Assembly: GCF_027942295.1 (NCBI RefSeq)
Contig: NZ_CP101416.1
Location: 4,665,582 to 4,729,581, forward strand
Source of the DNA: Pseudanabaena sp. Chao 1811
GTDB taxonomy: Bacteria > Cyanobacteriota > Cyanobacteriia > Pseudanabaenales > Pseudanabaenaceae
Length of the DNA stretch: 64,000 nucleotides
Reading direction: 5' to 3'
In this document: in pieces, positions 40,432-46,375 of the stretch
Numbering within the stretch: position 1 is the stretch's first letter
Layout: each line of letters begins with the position of its first letter
The notes under the pieces: model-generated
Databases searched by the model: none
What the model was told of the DNA's origin: nothing
The model's input: only the letters and a program-made list of their open reading frames with translations
Translations under genes and position numbers: made by a program

Positions 40432-41838
40432 AAGCTAGACGTGGAGACGATCCTCGAAGAGGATGGCAAAGCGATTAAGAGCAGGTTTCCAATCACGAAT
40501 CGGCATCGTCCGAGACTGTCAAGTAAAATGTGTAAAGTCTAGAAGCTAGACGTGGAGACGATCCTCGAAGAGGATGGCAAAGCGATTAAGAGCAGGTTTC
40601 CAATCACGAATCGGCATCGTCCACTTCTTCGAGATATTCCGCATTGCTAAATAAACGAGCTTGAAAGCAGCATCATCAGAGGGAAAAATCTGTTGGGATT
40701 TAATCACCTTCCGCAAACTACTGTTCATCGACTCAATCGCATTGGTGGTATAAATCGCCCTGCGAATCTCGGTCGGGAAAGCAAAGAAGGGGATAATGTT
40801 TGCCCAATGACTGCGCCAAGACTTGGAGATTGATGGATATTGCTTGTCCCACTTTTCAGCAAAGAGTTCGAGATTAAACTCAGCCTCCGATTCCGTCGCC
40901 GCGCTATAAATAGCCTTGAGGTCAGCACAAACTTGCTTGCGTTGTTGCCAAGGTACAAAAGCGACCGAGTTTCTGACCATGTGGACAATGCATAACTGCA
41001 CCTGAGTTTTAGGAAATACCGTCTCAATCGCATTAGGGAAACCAGTCAAGCCATCGACACAGGCAATCAAAATATCTTTGACCCCACGGTTGTGAATTTC
41101 GGTGAGTACTGACAACCAGAATTTCGCACCTTCATTCGGAGAAATCCACATACCCAGTAATTCCTTGTACCCGTCCATATTCACGCCCAAGGCAAAGTAC
41201 AAGGATTTGTTAATCACTCTGCCATTGTCTCGGACTTTGATGACTAGACAGTCCAGAAAGACGATTGGATAGACTGCTTCAAGGGGACGGTTTTGCCATT
41301 GCTTCACCTCGTCAATTACTGCATCTGTAACATTGGAAATAAGTGTTGGTGATACTTCAACACCATACATTTCTTGCAACTGGGCTTGAATATCCCTGAC
41401 ACTCATACCTCGTGCGTAGAGAGCAATGATCTTTTCATCTAGTCCTGACAAGCGACTTTGTCCTTTCTTCACCATCTGCGGTTCAAACTCCCCTTGCCGA
41501 TCTCGGGGGACTGCGATTTCGGCTACGCCAAAGTCACCTTGCACTTTTTTCTGGCTATAGCCATTGCGACTGTTGGTTTGTCCTTCTGGTCTTGGTTCGT
41601 GCTTACCGTATCCCAGATGGGTTGATAGTTCTGCTTCCAAGGCTCTCTCCACCAACGCGGTTGTCAGTTGTTTCAGAATGCCTCCTTCTCCGAATAGGTC
41701 AGGTGGTGTTTTACATTCTTGCAGCAATTCGTCGAGCAATTCTTTGCGTATATTCATCAGTTTTAGTGTTGGTAATTGTGTGTCTAGATCATCTCTCTGT
41801 ATATATCCCAGACTTTACACACTTCACTTTACACTCTC
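40401..41838 (-). mobile_element. IS256-family insertion sequence with duplicated end
   Basis: 1438 bp between 8-bp direct repeats (ATCGCTGT). The ends are imperfect inverted repeats: GTCAAGTAAAATGTGTAAAG on the left, and the right end read inward has TGTAAAGTGAAGTGTGTAAAG. The left 111 bp (40401-40511) is repeated almost exactly from 40512, one visible T/C difference, so a unit of about 1327 bp carries an extra copy of its terminus inside one pair of target duplications. Joining the flanks across one octamer restores the ISP reading frame (QNQIAVYDMYTRF). Confidence 0.93.
40546..41757 (-). CDS. IS256-family transposase
   Basis: 403 residues, full length. The DDE catalytic residues are visible in [16 protein letters not shown] (Asp), [20 protein letters not shown] (Asp) and [20 protein letters not shown] (Glu). 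The N-terminal helix-turn-helix region contains [22 protein letters not shown]. No frameshift is seen, so the element may still be mobile. The last codons are duplicated in the extra IS end at 40435-40511. Confidence 0.95.
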
Positions 41839-41846: not shown

Positions 41847-42126
41847 CTATGATATGTATACGCGCTTCTATCGTTGGGCAAGCGATCGCCTTGGTAAAAA
41901 TGGTTTAGTTGCATTTATCACCAATCGCTCATTTATTGATTCGCAAACATTTGATGGATTTCGTAGGTGTTTGGCAGATGAGTTTGATTATATTTACATT
42001 GTTGATACGCAGTCAGATGTGAGAAGTAATCCTAAAATTTCTGGCACAAAAAATAATGTCTTTGGTATCCAAACTGGCGTTGCTATAATGTTTTTAGTTA
42101 AAAATCATGAGGAGAAAAGAAAATGA
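41847..42126 (+). pseudogene. Type ISP restriction-modification enzyme, middle segment
   Basis: Continues the same reading frame after the IS: YDMYTRFYRWASDRLG, then LVAFITNRSFIDSQTFDGFRRCLADEFDYI and GTKNNVFGIQTGVAIMFLVKNHEE, the conserved post-NPPY region of type ISP/Eco57I methylases. It has no start codon of its own at the junction; an ATG at 41854 is incidental. The frame ends at a TGA (42124-42126) that overlaps the ATG of an inserted two-gene cassette. Confidence 0.85.
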
Positions 42127-42365
42127 ACGCTCAACTTATGGTTCAACCATCTTCTTTTGTTGATTCTGGAATACAGATGAAGCGAGTCCGTAATTTGTAT
42201 TTATTCAAGTTTAATGATGATTTACAGGATCGGCTTGAATTTTTGAATGAGAAAAAAAGAGATTTAAAATTAACCTCAGAAGAAGATTCTGAGTTAAAAG
42301 GAATCCTTGAACTAGACCGCATTTTTACATTATTAAACGCTAAAGTCATTGCTGAGTCTGCTTAA
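42123..42365 (+). CDS. Small protein encoded with the HNH endonuclease
   Basis: 80 residues. Helical: LYLFKFNDDLQDRLEFLNEKKRDLKL, then SEEDSELKGILELDRIFTLLNAKVIAESA. Short ORFs of this kind commonly precede free-standing HNH genes in cyanobacteria; a partner or inhibitor role is inference. The ATG overlaps the TGA of the ISP middle segment, and the HNH gene follows 2 bp after its stop. Confidence 0.75.
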   Translation: MNAQLMVQPSSFVDSGIQMKRVRNLYLFKFNDDLQDRLEFLNEKKRDLKLTSEEDSELKGILELDRIFTLLNAKVIAESA

Positions 42366-42367
42366 AC

Positions 42368-42832
42368 ATGTCTATTTCTAAAGAGATTCGTCAGCAAGTT
42401 CGAGACAGAGCCAATTATTTATGTGAATATTGTCATTCTTCAGAAGATGCGAGTGCAGCAAGATTTGAGATCGATCATATTAAACCGCGTTCTTTAGGTG
42501 GTTCAGACAAACTTGATAATTTAGCTTTGGCTTGTCAAAGATGTAACGGCTATCGTTATAATTTCACAGAAGGACTTGATCCTAATTCTTTGATTTCTGT
42601 GATCTTATTTAACCCACGTTTAGATAGTTGGAACGATCACTTTATCTGGACAAGTGACAGATTAAAAATCAAAGGTAAAACTTCAATTGGTCGTGCAACT
42701 TGCGATCGCTTAGATTTGAATGATGATAAACATAATGATAGTGCGATCGTGACGGCGCGACGTTTATGGATTCGTGGCGGATGGCATCCTCCATTAGGTG
42801 ATGGTATAGAGGTTAATAATGGAAAAGGATAA
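42368..42832 (+). CDS. HNH endonuclease
   Basis: 154 residues with a complete HNH fold: zinc CxxC (YLCEYCHSSED), EIDHIKPRSLGG (His-containing catalytic strand), NLALACQRCNGYRYN (Asn, second CxxC and Asn). The C-terminal half (HFIWTSDRLKIKGKTSIGRATCDRLDLND) is the usual tail of cyanobacterial free-standing HNH proteins. It is placed between two parts of a methyltransferase-nuclease gene, where homing-type HNH enzymes often insert. No catalytic loss is visible. Confidence 0.92.
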   Translation: MSISKEIRQQVRDRANYLCEYCHSSEDASAARFEIDHIKPRSLGGSDKLDNLALACQRCNGYRYNFTEGLDPNSLISVILFNPRLDSWNDHFIWTSDRLKIKGKTSIGRATCDRLDLNDDKHNDSAIVTARRLWIRGGWHPPLGDGIEVNNGKG

Positions 42833-43557
42833 AGCGAGAATTTTTTACTTTACGTTGAGGGATGAGCAAACTAAGGATGAAAAGCTAGATTGGTTTGCAA
42901 ATATAAAGATTGAGAATATTCCTTTTGAGCAGATTAAGCCAGATAAAAAGGCTAATTGGGTAAATCAAACTGATAATGATTTTGATGATTTATTGCCTTT
43001 GGTTGATAAAGAAGTAAAAGCAGGAAAATCGGAAGAAGCAATTTTTCAATTTTTTTCAGCAGGAATTAAAACTCAGCGTGATGAATGGGTTTATGATTTC
43101 TCAGAAGATATTTTAGTCAAAAAAATCAAATATCTTGTTAGTGCTTATATGGAGCAGTTAACAAAAGGTTCAACAAGAGATTTTGACGTTAAGTGGGATC
43201 GAGAAACAACTAAGTATTTAGTTCGTAATATCTCCAAAACCTTTAAAAAATCTCAGATTTTTAAAGGTTCATACCGTCCCTACACAAAGCAATATTTTTA
43301 TTTTGATAAACATTTCAATGGGATGACTTATCAATGGTTCAATATTTTCAATCCAGAAACTCAAGATAATTTATATTTATCTTTTGTCGCCATAGGAAAT
43401 AATTTACCTTTTCATTGTTTGGCTAGTAATACAATTATAGATCTTCATTTTACAGGTGATTCTCAATGTCTTCCTCTTTTTCGTTATGATGAAAATGGAG
43501 ATCGCATTGAGAATATTACTGATTGGGCTTTGGAGAGGTTCCGCGAGCGTTATCTGC

Positions 43558-43643
43558 CCTCACCCCCAGCCCCTCTCCCGCAGGAGAGGGGAGCAAGAGA
43601 ACCCTCACCCCCAGCCCCTCTCCCGCAGGAGAGGGGAGCAAGA
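43558..43643 (+). repeat. Two direct copies of a palindromic repeat left of DUF559
   Basis: CCCTCACCCCCAGCCCCTCT with the palindrome CTCTCCCGCAGGAGAG occurs at 43558 and again at 43602. Translated in frame it gives two PAPLPQERGA blocks. It is the inverse of the repeats on the right at 44043-44203. Confidence 0.9.
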
Positions 43644-43734
43644 TTGGAGCAGGAGAGGGATGGAGGATTAGATCCTGATTTGGTGCGTTTGGTGGGGGCT
43701 AGACGGGATATTCCTGAAGCTTTGTTGCAAAAGG

Positions 43735-44025
43735 CTAAAGAGTTGCGGCAAAAGCAAACTCCAGCAGAACAGGTGTTATGGCAGTGTTTACGCGCAAATC
43801 AGCTACATGGTGCAAAATTTCGCAGACAACACAACATTGGTCAATATATCGTTGATTTTTACTGCCATGCAGCCAAACTCGTCATCGAGCTAGATGGTGG
43901 AATCCATGAATTACAAAAAGACCGAGACAGCGATCGCGACACATACCTAAAAGCCAACGGCTTACAAGTCCTCCGCTTCCAAAACGAAGAAATTACCCAA
44001 AACCTCCCCCAAATCCTCCAAACCA
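43735..44025 (+). other. DUF559 nuclease domain (homing-type) inside the ISP frame
   Basis: The segment encodes KELRQKQTPAEQVLWQCLRA, KFRRQHNIGQYIVDFYCHAAKLVIELDGG and YLKANGLQVLRFQNEEI. It is the complete Vsr-like PD-(D/E)XK core of DUF559, with the catalytic pattern IVDF and LVIELDG. The domain normally exists as a free-standing ~110-residue protein. Here it has no start or stop of its own and reads through into the host gene. Confidence 0.88.
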
Positions 44026-44042
44026 TCTCGCAATTTCTCTTT

Positions 44043-44203
44043 CTCCCCTCTCCTGCGGGAGAGGGGCAGGGGGTGAGGGCAGAAACTCCTGCGGGAGAGG
44101 GGCTAGGGGTGAGGGCAGACTCTCTTGCTACGGAAGAGTTGAGGGCAGAAACTCCTACTCTCTTGTCCCCCTCTCCTGCGGGAGAGGGGCTAGGGGTGAG
44201 GGC
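44043..44203 (-). repeat. Three inverted copies of the palindromic repeat right of DUF559
   Basis: CCTCTCCTGCGGGAGAGGGG followed by a GGGTGAGGGCAGA tail occurs at 44043-44080, shortened at 44086-44118, and again at 44165-44203. They are inverted relative to the copies on the left of the nuclease domain. Confidence 0.88.
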
Positions 44204-44749
44204 AGAAACAATCACCAAACTCGACATCTTCCATTACACCTACGCCGTCCTTCACCATCCAGCCTACCGCACCAAATACGAACTCAACCTCAAACGCGAA
44301 TTTCCTCGACTTCCCTTTTACGAAGACTTCCATCAATGGGCATCATGGGGCAAAGCTCTAATGGACTTACATCTCAACTACGAAACCATCGAACCCTACG
44401 GACTACAACGAGTCGAAATTGCCACCAAAGACAACCCCAAAGCCAAACTCAAAGCCGATAAAACCAACGGTGTGATTAGCCTTGATGATAATACCCAGTT
44501 AACAGGTGTACCAGCGATCGCATGGGAATACAAACTCGGAAATCGTTCCGCCCTTGAATGGATACTCGATCAATACAAAGAAAAGAAGCCCAAAGATCCC
44601 ACTATTGCCAAGCTTTTCAATACCTACAAATTTGCTGACTATAAAGAGCAAGTCATCGATTTACTACAAAGAGTCTGCACAGTCAGCGTCAAGACAATGG
44701 AAATTATTCAACTTATGTGAGCTTCCAAAATATGAAAATTATAATCGAG

Positions 44750-46375
44750 CTATTTAGACTGTTTATTACCGTAACGGATAAAATCAACTAACCGCTTTGG
44801 TAAATTAATCAAGCCCTTCCACAACCTAATAAAGAAATTTTCGATTTTGAGAATAATGGCATCGAGCCAAAAGATTACGGTCATTACAGGGTTATAGACA
44901 TAGCCTAAAAGCGTTGCCTTAGCTTCAATCCATGCTCTTAACGGGCGCTCATTTTCTGTATCTGAAGTTGAATTTTGATAGGCTAATGTTTCTTCTTCAA
45001 AGAGCAAACTTCCTTCGATTCGATCTTGAGAAATTTGTGTAGTTGTGGTTTCAAAACTTTGTAACTCTCCTGAAGAGTTAATTGCTGTCATATCTTGAGA
45101 CTTCGTAAAGGCATGAGATTCATATTCCAAAGGAAGCGGCCAAGGTCCATTATCATCACCAAAGACATCTTCCATTGTTAGCCATGATTCCTCGCTGGGA
45201 GCTATATCAGAAGTTTCATCTAGAGTAGGTTTTGATAACTGTCTCCCAAAGAAATAGGCAATCGCTTCGGCAATCAATCTCTGTAAACGTTCAAGCTGAT
45301 CGTCAACTTTGAGTTCATCGGAACTTTCAGAACTAGATTTTTTAGCTTTATTTGGAGATTCCTGAGAACTGGTTTGGAGCTTATCGGCAGCTTCTCCCGA
45401 TAGAAATTCTGACGCTTTTTCTTGGAAATCCTCAAGGACATCACTAGATGTTACTGCCTCGCCATCAAGCACACGTTTACCAATAAAATAGGCGATCGCG
45501 GCAGCAATCAATTCTCGTAATCGCTCTAGATTGATATTTTGAGTTAATGGTGCATTTTCTTTGATCGCACCCGTTGATTTAGCACGTCGTCGCCGCAATT
45601 TGGGACTAGAGGGTAAAGCATCAGATTCTGTACCTGATAAATCTATTAATTCTTCATCACTAGCTAAATTTTGTTCTTGAGTATTAGCTTGATTGCCATG
45701 ACCAAAAAAATAGGCGATCGCTGCTTCGATCAAACGGCGCAATTGCTCTAGACTGCGATTTTTCCCTAGGGCGACATTTTCCGCCAAACCATTACTTTCT
45801 TTTAAGGCATTCTCCTCAGCTTGACGTTGCTCCACCTGTTGCTGCCAGATTTCCGCAAAGATCCGATTGGCAATTATTCTTGGCTCTAATTCAGGATTAT
45901 CGATGTTCGCGAGATTATCAGGCTGGCGCTTGACGATCGCGGCAATATTGCGATCTAGTTGGATTTTGGTACGATCGATCCAATTTAAAAATTTGACTAA
46001 AGGTCTTAAGAGTAAAGGAATTTCTGGGGAGATTTCGGGCTTTGGTAACTCTTGCTCAATTGCCTGCTCAATATTTTCAGTATTTGCCTCAGATTCCGAT
46101 AATAACCCGACGGACTCAGGTTGCGATCGCAGTTTTTCTCTATCCTCAGTTTTAGTACGACCTAGTGCAGGAAAAATCCGCTTAGTCGTCGAAGCAACCA
46201 GATACACAGGATATAAAGCCGCTTTTGCTACTTGATAGGCAAGCAAGCGCGGTAAGTCCTTCACGCTGGGCATCTGCTTTAATTGGCGATCAATTAATCG
46301 TCTTGCACTGCGTCCTAATTTGGCAGGCAAGGATTGATCGATCCAATTAAAGAGGCGGCTTTGAAAACGTGGCAT
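44750..46375 (-). CDS. Large hypothetical protein with a triple LIxAAIAYFxG repeat
   Basis: 541 residues. The N-terminus is basic and helical (LFNWIDQSLPAKLGRSARRLID). Three near-identical amphipathic motifs are spread over the middle: LRRLIEAAIAYFFGHG, LRELIAAAIAYFIGKR and LQRLIAEAIAYFFGRQL. Each is separated by acidic, disordered stretches rich in Ser and Glu. The C-terminus has a possible helix (YVYNPVMTVIFWLDAIILKIENFFIRLWKG). I know no function. The motifs look like membrane-surface binding helices or protein-docking sites. Confidence 0.75.
   Translation of the reverse strand: MPRFQSRLFNWIDQSLPAKLGRSARRLIDRQLKQMPSVKDLPRLLAYQVAKAALYPVYLVASTTKRIFPALGRTKTEDREKLRSQPESVGLLSESEANTENIEQAIEQELPKPEISPEIPLLLRPLVKFLNWIDRTKIQLDRNIAAIVKRQPDNLANIDNPELEPRIIANRIFAEIWQQQVEQRQAEENALKESNGLAENVALGKNRSLEQLRRLIEAAIAYFFGHGNQANTQEQNLASDEELIDLSGTESDALPSSPKLRRRRAKSTGAIKENAPLTQNINLERLRELIAAAIAYFIGKRVLDGEAVTSSDVLEDFQEKASEFLSGEAADKLQTSSQESPNKAKKSSSESSDELKVDDQLERLQRLIAEAIAYFFGRQLSKPTLDETSDIAPSEESWLTMEDVFGDDNGPWPLPLEYESHAFTKSQDMTAINSSGELQSFETTTTQISQDRIEGSLLFEEETLAYQNSTSDTENERPLRAWIEAKATLLGYVYNPVMTVIFWLDAIILKIENFFIRLWKGLINLPKRLVDFIRYGNKQSK

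Follow-up and report, generated by a model that had tools for sequence, protein, structure and literature searches.

An in-frame DUF559 nuclease domain bounded by inverted palindromic repeats recurs in unrelated host genes and is a putative mobile element

The repeat-bounded nuclease of the window ISP gene

The window analysed here, a stretch of 64,000 nucleotides of the Pseudanabaena sp. Chao 1811 genome, carries on its plus strand an open reading frame of 633 amino acids (42819–44720) in which a Pfam scan finds Type_ISP_C (PF18135), the C-terminal part of a Type ISP restriction–modification (R-M) enzyme, in two stretches with DUF559 (PF04480) between them. With 131.9 bits for a curated cut-off of 20.6 (E = 1.1e-38), the inserted domain belongs to the DUF559 family (PF04480, PRK09767); family libraries give this family as of unknown function, and the repeat-bounded in-frame layout described below lies outside its definition. 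The host parts upstream (42819–43556) and downstream (44210–44720) of the module cover profile positions 1–184 and 183–342, respectively, and are therefore adjacent in the family profile. The initial annotation had described these flanks as normally adjacent in ISP proteins, which is correct for the profile, where they abut, but about four residues (QDPK) lie between them in empty relatives.

The module itself, a Vsr-like DUF559 domain in frame with its repeats, occupies positions 43557–44206. It opens with two copies of a palindromic repeat of 42 nt (43557–43598 and 43602–43643, 100% identical), composed of a CCCTCACCC tag and a CCCCTCTCC hairpin (−18.9 kcal/mol for the first copy, folded with RNA parameters) and translated with the host. 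A leader (43644–43721, ..DPDLVRLVGARRDIPEA), which by sequence comparison resembles the leaders of other ISP-hosted modules, precedes the nuclease domain (43722–44039), recognized by its Pfam match, its conserved acidic and histidine residues and its predicted fold. Repeat search and folding place three further copies on the minus strand, inverted relative to the left ones, at 44045–44079 (inverted-match arm 44035–44083), at 44086–44119 (arm of the same extent), where the hairpin is shortened, and at 44168–44206 (arm 44159–44206). The right arms are 34–49 nt long and 94–97% complementary to the left repeats, and all stems of the window fold well except that of the second right copy. Repeat search and translation agree on the arrangement that had been read from the letters, two left repeats and three inverted right copies, all in frame (PAPLPQERG). 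The inverted-repeat score of the module is 40.5, compared with 13.0 for the 99th percentile of 2992 control windows. The repeat hairpin at 43556–43592 and 44044–44080 has some resemblance, far short of the reporting threshold, to the Rfam entry whalefall-1 (19.9 bits for a threshold of 37 bits).

The window copy of the host is probably not a working enzyme, because its gene is interrupted twice, by an IS256-family transposase gene (40546–41757, minus strand), which separates two ISP parts, and by an HNH cassette (42123–42832), which splits the gene. The latter marks a second fixed slot of ISP genes, after ..GVAIMFLVK, where the gene is cut in two and where different genomes hold different small cassettes: an HNH protein and an ORF of no recognised family in the window (42123–42832), a DUF4258 protein and a weakly MqsA-like protein at locus L069, with similar ORFs at L066, and DUF2281 and PIN proteins at L073, with similar ORFs at L152. 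The latter cassettes look like toxin–antitoxin pairs nested inside an R-M gene.

Six residues of the nuclease domain (E16, D45, E56, D58, H62 and D69) are identical in 129 of 129 DUF559 domains, a set to which the decayed domain of L297 (see below) does not belong and in which 80 domains come from a scan whose search patterns pre-fix some of these residues. The DUF559 part is under purifying selection, with group medians of omega of 0.06–0.15 in six host-embedded groups, four of which rest on one to three pairs; the nuclease is therefore not a dead passenger. Foldseek ranks the gonococcal protein NGO0050 (3hrl, 'putative endonuclease-like') first for the model of the isolated domain (pLDDT 83.7) and the homing endonuclease I-Bth0305I (3r3p) second and third, with E values of about 1e-4 and TM scores of 0.75–0.77 of the target; the match to E. 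coli Vsr is much weaker. The predicted model has the catalytic-domain fold of the EDxHD homing endonucleases. In the AlphaFold model of the whole host (mean pLDDT 55), DUF559 is a better-scored block and most repeat-coded stretches score low, and nothing further is drawn from this model.

Dispersal of the repeat and recurrence of the module

The repeat can be written as CCCTCACCCC-nnn-CCCCTCTCC-loop-GGAGAGGGG. Its asymmetric half is present in 53 exact copies in the 4.73-Mb genome, for 0 copies of a reversed-pattern control, and only this exact count is clean, because allowing up to two mismatches gives 66 matches to the repeat but also 54 to the reversed control. Of 30 copies sampled in this genome, nine fall within open frames of at least 250 amino acids, whereas 66% of positions drawn at random from these loci do so; most repeats are therefore outside genes. 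The repeat is also abundant in two draft genomes in which DUF559 was not detected, with 38 exact copies for G016 and 92 for G035, so that a strict need of the repeats for DUF559 in the same genome is not borne out.

DUF559 has three matches in the Chao 1811 genome, all three in frame in different R-M genes: the ISP gene, a gene for an MmeI-like methylase, in which the module lies just before the NPPF motif, and a gene for a second methylase of 1190 amino acids. Each module is flanked by inverted palindromic repeats, the sequence variant of which is particular to that module. At the level of the order, 38 genomes yielded 66 DUF559 matches, of which the 49 strong ones were kept, the 17 below 40 bits (six of them L111–L116) being outside all counts. 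Thirty of the 49 are embedded in long host frames, every one of which was read as coding for an R-M or DNA-methylase protein (nine MmeI-like, six ISP, four Eco57I-like, three HsdR, three of the L035 group, two PglX-like, two DUF1156 and one HsdS), with insertion points that vary between host families. The inverted-repeat test is passed by 29 of these 30 modules. In a combined test with control families of the same genomes, inverted repeats accompany 42 of 49 DUF559 domains, 1 of 28 HNH genes and 8 of 24 Y1 genes, and frames of more than 500 amino acids contain 30 of 49, 0 of 28 and 0 of 24, respectively (28 of 30 HNH and 24 of 30 Y1 loci were usable). Together with the control windows, the HNH family rules out a chance origin of the repeats. 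One host, at L091, looks chimeric at the module, as its right part matches the methylase of L093 and its left part resembles a different R-M protein.

Beyond the order, a prokaryote-wide genome scan with fixed peptide patterns gave 547 relatives, of which the best 80 were retained and 79 could be scored (L213 was dropped); the sample is, owing to this selection, not random. In this broad sample 57 of 79 modules exceed the inverted-repeat threshold that 1% of control windows pass (n = 2992), and long frames hold 40 of the modules, 32 of them with inverted flanks, while the other 39 stand alone, 25 of them with such flanks. Five of the eight long-frame modules that miss the threshold are in LeuRS, in the flanks of which short G-run palindromes are visible by eye. 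The hosts are HsdM (7), LeuRS (7), HsdR (6), HsdS (4), M14 peptidase (3), RecJ (2) and PurL-like (2) proteins, with one each of Eco57I-like, ISP, ValRS, Mfd and BioA, counts which leave out four long-frame loci (L179, L196, L235 and L236). The long-frame loci with an assigned host represent 16 named phyla, and one of their sources is an archaeal MAG. Pfam scans of 20 broad-sample proteins back the host type in 18; L235 has an SMC-like domain, and L196 has DUF559 and a weak nuclease relative only. The names ValRS (class I synthetase), BioA (class III aminotransferase) and PurL are readings of broader Pfam matches, and host names outside the scanned proteins are our own motif readings. DUF559 is at the C-terminal end, and not in the middle, of the two PurL-like proteins (L220 and L229). 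Among stand-alone modules, none of 58 lies antisense inside a longer frame that runs through both flanks.

Protein databases give a similar range of hosts. A search with the ISP module returned 13 proteins, of which seven are ISP, one (P0130) belongs to the class I synthetases and was read as IleRS, and one is HsdS-like, while the LeuRS module returned 361 proteins, with the LeuRS editing domain in 120 of 120 among the matches listed, many of them from named Flavobacteria. The DUF559 part of an R-M protein retrieved 194 long proteins; by our reading, in which DUF1156 and MmeI-type domains are included, 107 of 120 among the matches listed have a methylase-associated Pfam domain, and the other 13 comprise two helicase-like proteins, two TPR proteins and nine without another informative domain. 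Part of the Pfam names in these protein lists are those which we presume to correspond to the entries matched. P0001, from a reading that covered all but about 22 of 133 proteins, combines two tandem DUF559 copies, flanking repeats and a host stretch in one protein.

Filled and empty sites, and the extent of the unit

The ISP slot was compared among pattern-matched loci of the order, in which it is empty in nine distinct cases, holds DUF559 in six and holds a Y1 transposase in two. The latter (L147 and L148, from two species) carry a RAYT-like Y1 transposase in frame at the same ISP profile position as DUF559, with a different palindrome (GGGGCTTAAGCCCC). The coexistence of these three states supports the original view of the domain as an insertion, rather than an ancestral part of the ISP family, with the reservation that, in a comparison made by eye rather than on an ISP tree, the empty and the filled alleles fall into different subfamilies.

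LeuRS provides a second host in which the site can be followed. In a survey of 90 Flavobacteriaceae genomes, 88 of which have a strong editing-domain match, this match is unbroken from its start in 81 and starts late in seven. Thirty unbroken loci were fetched, and 29 are empty at the site, the last one (L286) being unmatched by the pattern. The seven late-start genes comprise four with an intact DUF559 (one of them from the chosen centre genome), one with a decayed DUF559, one with a mini-element and one with a longer loop devoid of DUF559. In the decayed copy (L297, genome G056) VEFEG replaces VIELDG..H and repeats are absent; it looks like a dead module that LeuRS has retained as a loop. 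The mini-element (L298, genome G137) is an in-frame palindrome-like insert (..NQVQHD..CHSALDAESTCH) without nuclease, in the same loop as DUF559 elsewhere. LeuRS filling is scattered over the host tree: on a tree of 41 rows constructed with the insert excluded, filled and not-filled states change at least seven times, and supported branches force at least five changes for intact DUF559. Five filled rows were added from the broad scan (L193 dropped out), so the share of filled rows on this tree is meaningless. DUF559 is somewhat clustered (12 of 500 shuffles are as low), as expected if inheritance accounts for some copies.

Comparison of R-M alleles from sister species (DNA pairs) indicates that repeats alone are also gained or lost in frame, as a lone repeat or an inverted repeat pair is found in place of a short loop. 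The host loop is replaced in these alleles rather than cleanly interrupted. By eye, no target-site duplication is seen in ISP, LeuRS or sister R-M alleles, but in these the host loops have been replaced, and none of the alleles compared is a close pre-insertion form.

The extent of homology was determined for 17 module pairs. When the hosts are unrelated, the main match ends at or within the module, as in the ValRS/Mfd pair of one Rickettsiales genome and in RecJ/LeuRS and HsdR/HsdM pairs, in which homology stops short of the hosts. In the L035/L102 pair it runs from about 150 nt before to 120–147 nt after the domain, repeats included; in several pairs only part of the DUF559 domain is common. 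A module match is absent from two of the 17 pairs, HsdR/HsdS L074/L068 and RecJ/LeuRS L215/L211. L074 and L068 also match outside the module, and other short matches in the compared loci were taken as dispersed repeats. On a DUF559 tree, based on a short alignment and with many unresolved forks, the 17 host groups require at least 25 changes of label, compared with 64.5 after shuffling, a pattern which suggests that modules mostly keep one host type but switch repeatedly. The CCTCACCC tag precedes the domain in the expected orientation in 17 of 80 broad loci and in the opposite one in 11 of 80 (21 and 16 of 1803 control windows), and follows it in 12 of 80 and 5 of 80, respectively.

The proposal that repeat and nuclease form a joint unit is thus strengthened by their co-occurrence across unrelated hosts and phyla and by the module-limited homology of the unrelated-host pairs compared, and that of an in-frame mobile unit which keeps the host frame open is backed by its recurrence in unrelated genes and by empty and filled orthologues. 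Mobility of the unit over evolutionary time is, on these sequence comparisons, well supported.

Proposed mode of spread and alternative explanations

The explanation that we favour, with a confidence somewhat above even, is that the repeat–leader–nuclease–inverted-repeat module recurring in frame in unrelated genes is a selfish, non-spliced element, spread by repair that its nuclease provokes. The nuclease would nick or cut at or near palindromes, or in the empty host allele, and a module copy would then serve as the template for repair, the palindromes acting as homology arms, so that either a repeat or a repeat–nuclease–repeat unit would be inserted. Survival would be restricted to insertions that leave the host readable, and we propose that for this reason the repeats serve both as ends and as linkers, encoding Pro/Gly/Ser-rich peptides in frame. 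R-M genes, which are addictive, and essential genes such as LeuRS would offer the element a shelter, because deleting or shifting it would cost the host. DUF559 as the putative driver of movement and the palindromes as its candidate targets are our best guess. Several observations weigh against this explanation: the abundance of the repeat in genomes where DUF559 was not detected, the location of most repeats outside genes, the weak correlation between repeat and nuclease similarity, the CCTCACCC tag in the opposite orientation, the long-frame modules below the inverted-repeat threshold, the replaced loops without visible target-site duplication, the subfamily difference between empty and filled ISP alleles, and the Y1 transposases that could move some repeats. 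More tentatively, and with a confidence slightly short of even, these modules may represent a new class of mobile elements, in which selfish Vsr-like nucleases of bacteria and archaea (one MAG) persist as permanent translated domains in loops of restriction enzymes, aminoacyl-tRNA synthetases and repair proteins, with palindromes acting as cutting sites, recombination ends and linkers, with REP-only non-autonomous forms, and with exchange with RAYT modules in the same slot.

A different explanation, which we consider rather unlikely, puts the movement of the repeats down to another agent, either a RAYT-type Y1 transposase or general recombination, with DUF559 as cargo caught between copies and selected for another cell function. 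Y1 transposase matches are present in 27 of 38 genomes of the order and could be movers of some repeats, and this possibility accords with the inverted flanks of a minority of Y1 loci, with the Y1 protein that takes the same ISP slot in two species and with the repeats of G016 and G035, where no nuclease was detected. However, the Y1 module of the ISP slot has a different repeat, HNH genes of the same genomes are rarely flanked in this way, and similarity of the nuclease and of the repeat rise together across phyla, albeit weakly. This correlation between repeat-arm similarity and nuclease identity is weak (rho = 0.15 between phyla, 0.13 with different hosts and 0.28 within a phylum; permutation p = 0.001 each).

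We consider it improbable that DUF559 is a domesticated accessory domain, fused to R-M enzymes as an aid to restriction, with the repeats as leftover linkers. The uniformly R-M or DNA-methylase hosts of the long-frame modules in the order, the preponderance of methylase-associated domains among the matches listed in the protein search and the strong purifying selection on the nuclease accord with domestication, but a restriction nuclease is of no evident use to LeuRS, other class I synthetases, Mfd, RecJ or an aminotransferase, insertion points vary by host family, and empty orthologues exist for both ISP and LeuRS.

Mobile elements inside genes are normally spliced out, as introns and inteins are, or else the gene is broken, and inteins are endonuclease-coding in-frame inserts, found in essential genes with a sporadic distribution. 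The modules share these latter features with inteins, and an in-frame nuclease in essential genes is also the usual look of intron-encoded endonucleases, but removal of the insert, as an intein or a self-splicing RNA intron, to leave a host protein without it is very improbable, given that neither the window protein nor any of 20 broad-sample proteins showed a Hint splicing domain in Pfam scans, that an Rfam scan of window positions 42000–45000 (E up to 0.1) found no group I or group II intron RNA, only the sub-threshold hairpin match, and that in the fused cases read the reading frame of the host runs on through repeats and linkers. Intein or intron identity was rejected on these Pfam and Rfam results, and the host protein is expected to keep the insert. 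Host genes, the essential LeuRS among them, appear to tolerate an enzyme-coding insert of this kind as a permanent domain.

Several known systems resemble this element in part. REPINs are short dispersed palindromes in inverted pairs that flank a nuclease gene. The present repeats have the same organization, with 53 dispersed copies and an enzyme flanked in inverted order, and a Y1 protein can occupy the same ISP slot; in contrast with RAYTs, the enzyme of the window is a DUF559/Vsr-like domain in frame in a host protein and not an HUH Y1 transposase, Y1 modules being those of L147 and L148. Palindromic DNA in frame in protein-coding genes is described for Rickettsia palindromic elements, reviewed in PMC10969869, and for intragenic REPs, reported in 2013 in genes that include tRNA synthetase and repair genes and encoding peptides of 20–82 amino acids (PMC3733652). 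Those elements, as presented there, encode short peptides, whereas the module encodes a whole nuclease; the short, enzyme-free form has its counterpart in the lone in-frame repeats of sister alleles. One DUF559 gene has already been assigned to the EDxHD homing endonucleases (PMC9403480), whose catalytic-domain fold (3r3p) the nuclease shares. I-Bth0305I is intron-encoded and has an added DNA-binding region (PMC3943268), whereas the Rfam scan of the window gave no intron, and retention of the DUF559 domain by its host protein is predicted. No description of an in-frame nuclease module was found in the literature searched, which included papers mentioning DUF559 or PF04480, mostly judged by their title and the start of their abstract; within that literature in-frame REPs are already known and the composite nuclease module is apparently undescribed.

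To our knowledge, no mover of the palindromic repeats found inside proteins is established. If the nuclease drives the spread of the element, it would provide such a driver for one set of intraprotein palindromic repeats, would point to a way in which proteins gain domains and would give part of DUF559 a function that can be tested. R-M enzymes and tRNA synthetases annotated as a 'DUF559 fusion' might in that case carry parasites rather than new activities. In the PADLOC defence library the hosts match R-M entries, and the DUF559 part alone matches only DpdF and a methyl-directed REase, weakly.
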